Source: a virus. From it: DNA of 37,325 bases. How positions within the stretch are numbered: position 1 is the first letter of the stretch; each line of letters begins with the position of its first letter. A program made the translations under genes and the position numbers. The stretch covers positions 1-37,325 of IMG/VR virus record IMGVR_UViG_3300042485_000423; one strand, 5' to 3'. The notes beneath the pieces are model-generated. The model was not told the origin of the DNA and ran no database searches. It saw nothing but the letters and a program-made list of their open reading frames with translations. Below are positions 17,335-26,787 of the stretch, in pieces.

Positions 17335-17359
17335 ATCGAAATTATAAACACCTAAAATT

Positions 17360-18346
17360 ATGGCTATCTCCACTACATATCAACCAACCGTGCCTAGCAC
17401 GAGTTCCACTGTCGGATCGAACAAAGGAAACCGCGAGGATCTTTCTTCGATGCTTACCATGCTTGAGCCTGAACAAACTCCTATCACTTCTCTTTGCTCG
17501 AAAGCAAAAGCAAGTGGCGTTCTTCACGAATGGATTGTTGACGGTCTTGACGCACCTTCCGCCAATGGTATCAACGAAACTTCCGATGTAACCGCTTTCA
17601 GCAACAAGTTTGCTAACCGCGCTCGCCTTGGTAACTACACGCAAATCTTCCGCAAGGACTACCTTGTTTCCGACCTGCAAAACGCAGTCGCAAGCGTTGG
17701 CCCAGCAGACGTTGCACAAGCAAAAGCAAAAGCCCTTCGCGAAATCAAACGCGACATCGAGTTCGCTATTGCTTCCGCAAACGACCGCCAAGCTGAAGAT
17801 GGTGTGAACCCATACAAGCTCCGTGGACTTGGTGACTGGATTGACTCCGCTGGCCCTTCCGATGTGCCTGCTTCTTATCGCACCCCTGCTGGTTCGATCA
17901 AGGCTGCAACGCTCACCGAAGCTACCCTTAACGACCTTCTTGGCAGCATCTTTGCCGAGACTGGTGAGATGGGTAACTTGACGATGGTTGCCAACGTAGC
18001 ACTCCGCAAAGTTATCGCTAACTTCACCCGTGCTGAAGGTGTTACCACCGCTACTGCATATAACGTCAACGAGGATGCAACTTCCCGTAAGATCACCCTT
18101 AGCGTATCGCTTTTCGATACTGACTTCGGTGTTATCAAACTGGTCAACGGCAACCCTGCTTGTATGCCAACAGCTACCACCAACATTGGTTATGTCCTTG
18201 ATCCTAAGTATCTTGGCATTGGCACGCTGCTTCCACTTGAATCTGTTGCCCTTGAGAACCAAGGCGCAGGTGAGCGTGGCTTCGTTAAAACTGCACTTAC
18301 GCTTGTTTGCAAATCCCCACAAGCACACGGTAAAGTCGCATACTAA
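17360..18346 (+). CDS. Major capsid protein (SU10/DUF5309 type)
   Basis: This 328-aa protein's N-terminal section (GNREDLSSMLTMLEPEQTPI, then KAKASGVLHEWIVDGL) matches the SU10-type major capsid family, an HK97-fold shell protein. The body (KDYLVSDLQNAV, then KALREIKRDIEFAI) and the C-terminal region fit that family. The gene follows the scaffold and has a leader of alternating A/T without SD. Codon use is C-ending and GC-richer than flanking genes, consistent with high expression. Confidence 0.9.
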   Translation: MAISTTYQPTVPSTSSTVGSNKGNREDLSSMLTMLEPEQTPITSLCSKAKASGVLHEWIVDGLDAPSANGINETSDVTAFSNKFANRARLGNYTQIFRKDYLVSDLQNAVASVGPADVAQAKAKALREIKRDIEFAIASANDRQAEDGVNPYKLRGLGDWIDSAGPSDVPASYRTPAGSIKAATLTEATLNDLLGSIFAETGEMGNLTMVANVALRKVIANFTRAEGVTTATAYNVNEDATSRKITLSVSLFDTDFGVIKLVNGNPACMPTATTNIGYVLDPKYLGIGTLLPLESVALENQGAGERGFVKTALTLVCKSPQAHGKVAY

Positions 18347-25259: not shown

Positions 25260-26132
25260 TTATTCTTTTAATAGTTTCCATGCAAGTGCAGCCACTGCTG
25301 GAACTTGTCCATTTCCAATGGCTTTAAGTCTGTCCACTCTAGAGGCCACCCCATTAGCCACTCGACGAATGTCGGATTCAGAGTCCCACCATTCCACTCT
25401 TCTGGTGTTGTTCCCCGAATTAGTGGTGAGTTCCCTAACATTTTTTGCATCTTGCCATTCGGAGTTCCTGCTGCATCCTCGTTCGCTGATGGAGTTGGAT
25501 ACATTGCCACTGTTCTCGCTAATCCTATGCTTCCAGAAACTCCCTGATTGCTGATCTTTCGCAGTTTGCCAGACTTTAGCATGATTAGCTTGGTGTTGTC
25601 GTTTAGAATCGCTCCCATCGTTGCATCGGCGCACGTTGGAGTCGGTAGCAAGAATCCAGATTCTGTCTCGTCTATGAGGAGCGGAGACATGATGCGCTCC
25701 AACAATACCCCACTTCGCATCATACCCCATTTCGGTAAGGTCAGCGAGGACGGTGCTAAGTCCTCTTCCCACAAGCATTGGTGAGTTTTCCACGAAAGCG
25801 TATTTAGGTCGAACTTCACCGATGATTCTCGCCATGTGTTTCCACATACCGCTTCTTGATCCTTCAATTCCTGCACCTTTACCTGCTGCGGATATGTCTT
25901 GGCACGGGAAACCTCCGCAGATAACATCAACTTTTCCTCGCCAAGGTGTTCCATCGAAGGTTTGCACATCGTCCCAGATTGGGAACTTTGGCAAGATTCC
26001 ATCTCGCTGTCTTTGGAGCAAGACTTTTTGGCAGTAAGGTTCAATCTCGACAGCACAAACTGTGGTATGTCCGAGAAGCATTCCACCGAGAATTCCTCCC
26101 CCTGCTCCTGAAAATAAATGTAGCTCATTCAC
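25260..26132 (-). CDS. DNA (cytosine-5) methyltransferase
   Basis: This 290-aa C5-methyltransferase transfers a methyl group from S-adenosylmethionine to cytosine in DNA. Motif I is FSGAGGG (residues 7-13), motif IV GGFPCQ with catalytic C77, motif VI ENSP (E115-N116), motif VIII RRDRIW, and motif X RLKAIGNGQVPAVAAL near the end. GTG 26132 is chosen because AAGGAG lies 5 nt upstream (26143-26138); a TTG at 26147 would place that site inside the gene. No restriction enzyme is near, so it is probably an orphan protecting phage DNA from host nucleases. A second long frame lies on top of it. Confidence 0.9.
   Translation of the reverse strand: MNELHLFSGAGGGILGGMLLGHTTVCAVEIEPYCQKVLLQRQRDGILPKFPIWDDVQTFDGTPWRGKVDVICGGFPCQDISAAGKGAGIEGSRSGMWKHMARIIGEVRPKYAFVENSPMLVGRGLSTVLADLTEMGYDAKWGIVGAHHVSAPHRRDRIWILATDSNVRRCNDGSDSKRQHQANHAKVWQTAKDQQSGSFWKHRISENSGNVSNSISERGCSRNSEWQDAKNVRELTTNSGNNTRRVEWWDSESDIRRVANGVASRVDRLKAIGNGQVPAVAALAWKLLKE
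25268..26128 (-). CDS. Overlapping 286-codon frame within the methyltransferase gene
   Basis: This 286-aa frame is offset by 1 from the methyltransferase. It starts at ATG 26128, 4 bases after the GTG of the methyltransferase, and ends 8 bp before it. The same AAGGAG serves both starts (spacings 5 and 9), and the ATG overlaps the RuvC stop (ATGA). Residues 112-140 (LSWKTHQCLWEEDLAPSS, then LPKWGMMRSG), 160-169 (LLPTPTCADA) and 246-268 (NGGTLNPTFVEWLMGWPLEW) match a phage-associated protein family that I recognise by these motifs. A dual-coding gene is likely. Its biochemical role is unknown to me; the alternative is over-annotation of a conserved methyltransferase shadow. Confidence 0.6.
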   Translation of the reverse strand: MSYIYFQEQGEEFSVECFSDIPQFVLSRLNLTAKKSCSKDSEMESCQSSQSGTMCKPSMEHLGEEKLMLSAEVSRAKTYPQQVKVQELKDQEAVCGNTWRESSVKFDLNTLSWKTHQCLWEEDLAPSSLTLPKWGMMRSGVLLERIMSPLLIDETESGFLLPTPTCADATMGAILNDNTKLIMLKSGKLRKISNQGVSGSIGLARTVAMYPTPSANEDAAGTPNGKMQKMLGNSPLIRGTTPEEWNGGTLNPTFVEWLMGWPLEWTDLKPLEMDKFQQWLHLHGNY

Positions 26133-26787
26133 TTTGTCTCCTTCCAAATTCTGCGATTAAGCAAGCGTCAATGATCCCATCGTGTAGTTTCTTACCCTTT
26201 GGTTTCAGCGTGGGAAACTTCTCGTCTTTCCAGTTGGCCAACGCAAAAGCCTGCTCGCTTTCTTTGCTGGCTGCAATCTTAGTTTTACCCATCAGTTCCT
26301 TCTGCCATTGCCTTGCCTGGATGCCGTGCCAATGAAGGTTCTTAGTCTCCATTAGCCCACGCAGGCTATGAAAGCTGGATGCCATAGACAACGCAGCTCC
26401 AAGGCTCTTGCTTCCACAAGGTTCTTCGATGTAATACGTGGCGTAGTTCAACCTTCCGTGCATCTCTTTTATCAGCCAAAGATTGACTGCCTGAATATCA
26501 ATCTCGTTCTTACCCTTGCGTTCTTTGCACGGCATTGGGGTCATGGCGATTATCCCACCCGTCTGCTGGCTAAGGATAACGATACCCCCAGATAGCCCGT
26601 TATCAATACCAACAACGCATGGTTTCACGGCGTATTCTTCAACCGTGTGTCCAAACGCATCGAGCATATTCTTTGCGTCAATAACGTCTATCTCCTTGGT
26701 TACGTGGTTAGGGTAGTTGGCAATGGTGTAGTGGACAATATCATCATCGCCCATCAGTTTGCCGTCAACGTAGATTTGCGTTTTCAT
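26125..26787 (-). CDS. RuvC-like Holliday junction resolvase
   Basis: This 220-aa RNase H-fold nuclease has acidic positions at D62 (VVGIDNGLSGGIVIL), E121/E122 (YYIEEP) and D203/D207 (KLHDGIIDACLIAEFGRR), the RuvC arrangement. It would resolve branched DNA before packaging. About 55 N-terminal residues precede the RuvC core and are not recognised. It overlaps the methyltransferase frames at its 3' end and the upstream gene by 4 bp. Confidence 0.8.
   Translation of the reverse strand: MKTQIYVDGKLMGDDDIVHYTIANYPNHVTKEIDVIDAKNMLDAFGHTVEEYAVKPCVVGIDNGLSGGIVILSQQTGGIIAMTPMPCKERKGKNEIDIQAVNLWLIKEMHGRLNYATYYIEEPCGSKSLGAALSMASSFHSLRGLMETKNLHWHGIQARQWQKELMGKTKIAASKESEQAFALANWKDEKFPTLKPKGKKLHDGIIDACLIAEFGRRQSE

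Follow-up and report, generated by a model that had tools for sequence, protein, structure and literature searches.

Two overlapping same-strand frames of a viral genome as probable subunits of one C5 cytosine methyltransferase

In a viral genome of 37,325 nucleotides (IMG/VR record IMGVR_UViG_3300042485_000423, positions 1-37,325; this whole stretch is hereafter the window), the gene for a C5 cytosine methyltransferase is overlaid along nearly its entire length by a second open frame on the same strand. This locus raises the question of whether the second frame encodes a protein and, if so, what that protein has to do with the methyltransferase. We denote the methyltransferase frame as A, the frame offset from it by +1 as B, the third frame of the same strand as C, and the products of A and B as alpha and beta (Table 1). 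The reading we propose, and consider very probable, is that the locus encodes a two-subunit C5 methyltransferase with its alpha and beta chains in overlapping frames.

Table 1. Features of the dual-frame locus and its surroundings in the window
Feature	Positions	Strand	Details and basis
Alpha, frame-A C5 cytosine methyltransferase CDS, 290 aa	25260..26132	-	GTG start, stop included; PF00145 1e-34, PHROG 363 1.3e-70
Beta, frame-B CDS (A+1), 286 aa	25268..26128	-	ATG start, stop included; PHROG 1008 1.5e-19; tblastn matches
Shine-Dalgarno AAGGAG common to alpha and beta	26138..26143	-	Sequence; 5 nt to GTG, 9 nt to ATG
Alpha catalytic part, motifs I-VIII, residues 1-163	25644..26132	-	PF00145; AF2 pLDDT; M.HaeIII/M.HhaI fold match
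Alpha residues 185-258, predicted disordered	25359..25580	-	AF2 pLDDT <50; frame-B-type divergence; same DNA encodes the putative beta recognition region
Alpha motif X (RVDRLKAIGNGQVPAVAALAW)	25266..25349	-	Invariant columns R268, G273, N274, Q276
Beta leader, residues 1-~105	25814..26128	-	Stop-free, with amino-acid sequence unconserved
Putative beta recognition region, residues 158-245, LPTPT.AD / YPTPSANED modules	25394..25657	-	B3-highest divergence
Beta motif-IX-like segment LNPTFVEWLMGWPLEWTDL, residues 250-268	25325..25381	-	Near-invariant in 80 sequences; fourfold sites of A almost frozen, 0.036-0.068
RuvC-like Holliday junction resolvase gene, upstream	26125..26787	-	PHROG 1770 3.6e-13; its stop overlaps the beta start (ATGA)

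Layout and coding status of the second frame

Direct reading of the sequence bore out all the coordinates, the start and stop spacings, the distances from AAGGAG and the ATGA overlap with the RuvC stop that the first-pass annotation had given, and the peptides quoted there (LPKWGMMRSG, LLPTPTCADA and others) are all present in frame B. The start codons, GTG 26132-26130 for A and ATG 26128-26126 for B, lie 4 nt apart, and the frames end 8 nt apart, at 25260 and 25268; the stop of the RuvC-like gene is the TGA within ATGA 26128-26125. Initiation of A at an upstream TTG in the same frame, at 26147, would lengthen its product to 295 aa, but the relatives agree with GTG 26132 instead. Genes resembling those for RuvC, RecT, exonuclease VIII and DnaC are neighbours of the dual-frame gene. 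Among 135 distinct relatives, the ATG at +4 is present in about 130 and is immediately preceded on its 5′ side by a frame-B stop in 122; the second codon of A reads AAT in 128 genes and AAC in one.

A frame of this kind might be a non-functional shadow that the amino-acid and codon composition of the methyltransferase keeps free of stops. In favour of a shadow, B invariably overlaps a methyltransferase gene or lies next to one, and in codons 11-110 its identity does not exceed that of frame C. This explanation is contradicted by synonymous shuffles of A. When synonymous codons were permuted in A, with its protein and codon usage unchanged, frame B of the window acquired a mean of 4.6 stops and was open in 0 of 300 shuffles, so its openness is beyond chance; frame C of the window holds 22 stops. 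In 85 non-redundant relatives (genes of <75% identity), 3 frame-B stops were observed vs 427 expected from synonymous shuffles of A, and the corresponding values for frame C were 1422 and 1200. Between codon 2 and the last ~22 codons, frame B is uninterrupted in 80 of 80, and then in 135 of 135, distinct relatives, and since these relatives were fetched by frame A only, the count is unbiased toward B. Furthermore, similarity in the C-terminal half of B, given A, scored 174.5 vs 56 in the shuffle null and was far above the null in every pair; this score exceeds that of A (147.8), and the frame C control reached 98 vs a null of 46.

The distribution of substitutions indicates which frame is constrained in each part of the gene. 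Since B is A+1, A3 corresponds to B2 and A1 to B3. In the catalytic half, divergence follows the order A3 > A1 > A2, the pattern of a stretch that evolves as frame A. In the region from motif VIII to IX, B3 was the most divergent position in 32 of 32 alignable pairs (means of 0.348, 0.152 and 0.148 for B3, B1 and B2, respectively). This analysis of alignable pairs replaced one of all pairs, which was unreliable in the recognition region because distant regions do not align. Eleven pairs chosen as independent gave pooled values of 286/979, 91/981 and 74/978 for B3, B1 and B2 in the recognition region, vs 0.071, 0.025 and 0.168 for the same positions in codons 5-105; between the window and relative L014 (relatives are designated by L numbers), 21, 2 and 0 substitutions were counted at B3, B1 and B2 of the recognition region. 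Given this concentration at B3 between motif VIII and the C-terminus, that stretch evolves as frame B. The motif IX/X region is constrained in both frames. Fourfold sites, taken from codons with an identical A residue, are at baseline over codons 1-110 (0.40-0.63), dip to 0.30 at codons 111-120 and 0.17 at 131-140, and fall to 0.04-0.07 at codons 250-269, where B encodes WVEWLMGWP.

The first-pass annotation, which read the gene as dual-coding and took the second frame for a real protein, did not recognise the unconserved leader at the start of beta, about 105 residues long. Codons 2-105 of B contain 0 stops vs 133 expected, fourfold divergence in the leader is at baseline, and the leader is predicted to be disordered (pLDDT about 42); judged from these values, the first 105 codons of B are under constraint against stops only. 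For the remainder, the proposal of dual coding was upheld by the avoidance of stops, the flip in codon-position divergence and the conserved +4 start. The checks suggested with it gave congruent results: frame B is practically free of stops in relatives, constraint at synonymous sites is not confined to the methyltransferase frame, with the recognition region evolving as B, and database searches of frame B retrieved PHROG 1008 (1.5e-19) and tblastn matches in 18 phage and 6 plasmid records. At the level of the nucleotide sequence, these comparisons show that both frames are open and under selection, that the +4 start is conserved and that constraint on the recognition region acts in B. By the same comparisons, B is a genuine coding frame. 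We reject the shadow, to which we give practically no chance, on the synonymous shuffles, on the divergence classes, with the recognition region changing at B third positions, and on the motif X exchange described below, in which motif X is relocated into B in several lineages; a relative with the C-terminal half of B as a separate gene (L065) also speaks against it.

Proposed division of the enzyme between the two chains

In the AF2 model of alpha, pLDDT is mostly >90 in the catalytic domain, drops to <50 for most of residues 185-258 and goes up again at motif X. The best PDB matches, M.HaeIII and M.HhaI, were aligned over ~172 columns only, and on this model alpha folds as the catalytic domain of these enzymes, with no folded recognition domain. 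A profile from eight canonical enzymes detected no motif IX site in frame A. In beta, the segment LNPxWVEWLMGWP sits between motifs VIII and X, and the canonical profile had its best position at this site in 46 of 80 sequences, with a weak score (~3 bits vs ~40 for canonical enzymes). The segment is designated as motif-IX-like from its position and from the conserved pattern L.P....LMG.P. Apparent motif-IX matches of the first beta profile in frame A were traced to one row, L015, which was then removed; frame B of L015 carries motif X.

Beta itself was poorly modelled (mean pLDDT of 56), and a fold search of the PDB with this poor model gave no match; PDB profile searches with frame-B alignments returned nothing relevant, and HHalign of beta against canonical enzymes aligned motif X alone, weakly. 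By every test made here, the recognition region belongs to beta. It could be argued that B, having its own start and matching no model in Pfam, NCBIfam or PADLOC, is an independent protein (an inhibitor, protector or regulator) that shares its DNA with a self-sufficient methyltransferase. This is highly unlikely: A has neither a folded recognition domain nor a detectable motif IX, motif X occurs in B where it is missing from A, and each frame lacks what the other has. The role of partner, one of three that the first-pass annotation had offered for the second protein, is favoured because B supplies the recognition region and the motif-IX-like segment, both missing from A, and in some lineages motif X as well; the evidence does not pick inhibitor or protector.

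Comparison among relatives provides what we regard as the strongest support for two halves of one enzyme, namely the exchange of motif X and the existence of split genes. Counted without deduplication over the loci that possess both parts, motif X is confined to A in 309 and to B in 14, and 0 have it in both frames, which shows that it has been exchanged between the subunits. When motif X is in B, A usually ends directly after motif VIII. This is the case in L032, L041, L057, L066, L069, L077 and L092, in which B continues through LPTP modules and LNPDWVEWLMGWPVGWT to motif X (HRVGRLKAIGNGQ); in L201 and L216, A likewise ends after motif VIII and B carries the recognition region, IX and X. In L065, the second half is a separate downstream gene. 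In Mycobacterium phage Roosevelt (L384), gp77 carries motifs I-VIII, and gp76 carries LPTP, the IX-like segment and X at an offset of +1, with ~20 nt of overlap. No true single-frame fusion was found among the relatives.

Several of these loci show additional features. Both gp77 and gp76 of Roosevelt are annotated as DNA methylase and resemble the two halves, alpha and beta, of a single enzyme, and other mycobacteriophages list similar adjacent pairs. A different second DNA methyltransferase gene, with an ITDPPYG motif, lies between the alpha gene and the free-standing beta gene of L065 (L065:1928-2605). In L015, an HNH-like endonuclease frame, in frame C, is found between the motif-IX-like segment and motif X of beta (L015:2312-2719); beta continues in frame B, and a homing insertion into the dual-coding gene is possible. 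One or both frames of L022, L182 and L202 are broken by an indel or stop, through decay or assembly error.

The order of the motifs also bears on programmed +1 frameshifting, in which ribosomes initiating in A would shift to B past motif VIII and produce a single chain. B is always A+1, the order I-VIII, recognition region, IX, X is canonical, A ends just after motif VIII in L032-type genes, and the predicted chain would contain I-VIII, the recognition region and IX, plus X in the L032 type. However, slippage leaves unexplained both the stop-free B upstream of any slip site and the conserved +4 ATG with a stop immediately before it, and in genes of the window type, where motif X is in A, the slipped product would be devoid of it. 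The stop-free, unconserved leader and the conserved ATG thus speak against a frameshift origin of the B domain, which we hold to be very unlikely.

In the two-subunit enzyme that we propose, ribosomes recruited by the single Shine-Dalgarno would start at either GTG 26132 or ATG 26128. The former would yield alpha, with motifs I-VIII, an unstructured linker and motif X; the latter would yield beta, in which ~105 unconserved residues precede a domain supplying target recognition and motif IX. The simplest reading of the +4 ATG is that ribosomes would begin B there and pass through a leader of no particular sequence. Alpha and beta would then assemble into one active enzyme. We infer co-translation from the shared site, heterodimer formation and methylation activity, with a biological role that may be to protect phage DNA from host restriction or to mark it.

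Comparison with split and monomeric C5 methyltransferases

The first-pass annotation, well founded in its reading of dual coding, overlooked two precedents, M.EcoHK31I and M.AquI. Lee, Kam and Shaw reportedly described in 1995 that the small subunit of M.EcoHK31I is read from an alternative frame within the gene for the large subunit, and that both are required in vitro. By description, this enzyme would be the closest precedent: its gene, too, would encode the second chain in a different frame. By this arrangement and the published distribution of motifs, the window locus would therefore work like M.EcoHK31I. It differs in the start of beta, 4 nt behind that of alpha, in the extension of beta over almost the full gene and in the ~105-residue leader. 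In M.EcoHK31I (YGGCCR), motifs I-VIII and X are placed in the large subunit together with the predicted TRD, and the small one has motif IX only (PMC3404938). The alpha chain of the window likewise carries motifs I-VIII and X, according to PF00145, the motif X columns and the fold match; unlike in M.EcoHK31I, whose TRD the same source assigns to the large subunit, the recognition region appears to be in beta, and the corresponding part of alpha is predicted to be disordered.

In the cyanobacterial M.AquI (CYCGRG), I-VIII are assigned to the alpha chain and IX and X to the small chain, with the variable region split between the chains (PMC3404938). The window resembles it in having two chains, with I-VIII in alpha, and differs in having motif X in alpha and frames that overlap throughout; an M.AquI-type division is found in the L032-type relatives, L092, L201, L216, L065 and mycobacteriophage gp77/gp76. 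With the monomeric enzymes (M.HaeIII, M.HhaI, Dcm; PF00145), alpha shares the catalytic fold and motifs I-VIII and X, but recognition domain and motif IX would lie outside the alpha chain, and its linker is disordered. The PF00145 match ends at ~position 165 of 324 in several dual-frame relatives, vs ~320 in canonical enzymes. The best database family for frame B, PHROG 1008 (329 positions), is annotated as DNA methyltransferase and, judged by name, reads like a self-contained enzyme, whereas frame B has no catalytic motif.

Among the papers searched, none was found to describe this phage arrangement; a P. larvae phage paper lists two cytosine methyltransferases, without comment in the passages retrieved. 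As judged from the sequences compared, what would be new here is the nearly coextensive coding, the assignment of the recognition region to beta, the motif X exchange and the breadth of the arrangement.

Distribution and annotation

Relatives of frame B occur in phages of Acinetobacter, Salmonella, Pseudomonas, Vibrio, Stenotrophomonas, Microcystis and Bacteroides, as well as on plasmids of Leptospira and Acinetobacter. When genomes were scanned with B, the search retrieved 75 loci from many phyla, including Pseudomonadota, Bacillota, Actinomycetota, Myxococcota, Verrucomicrobiota and Chloroflexota, and almost all of these loci share the two-frame layout; in the distant ones, the B frame opens well inside A. 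The layout is also present in enterobacterial prophages, including those of E. coli. Annotation varies, with alpha only in some records, beta only, as a hypothetical protein, in another, and both frames in Paenibacillus phage Jacopo; gene finders usually annotate one half only. In a prophage of E. coli strain 914033 (L383), RefSeq gives two incomplete pseudogene fragments, and the alpha and beta frames are open at full length.

We lean towards a broader view, in which one widespread group of C5 methyltransferases, from phages, prophages and bacteria of many phyla, consists of obligately two-subunit enzymes with the recognition subunit in the alternative frame and with motif X moved between frames several times; many annotated orphan or 'disordered-TRD' cytosine methyltransferases would hence be half-enzymes whose specificity subunit is unannotated. 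In practical terms, Pfam and NCBIfam contain no beta model and records annotate one frame or the other; alpha cloned without beta would presumably be inactive, and methylome studies would overlook the specificity subunit. In addition, a long and ancient same-strand overlap whose products are both apparently parts of one enzyme offers a clean system for the study of frame co-selection.

Elsewhere in the window, two open frames of 328 codons occupy almost the same DNA on opposite strands, at 17345-18328 (-) and 17360-18343 (+). The + frame corresponds to the major head protein (PHROG 1328), and the - frame, which has no family, is probably a shadow.
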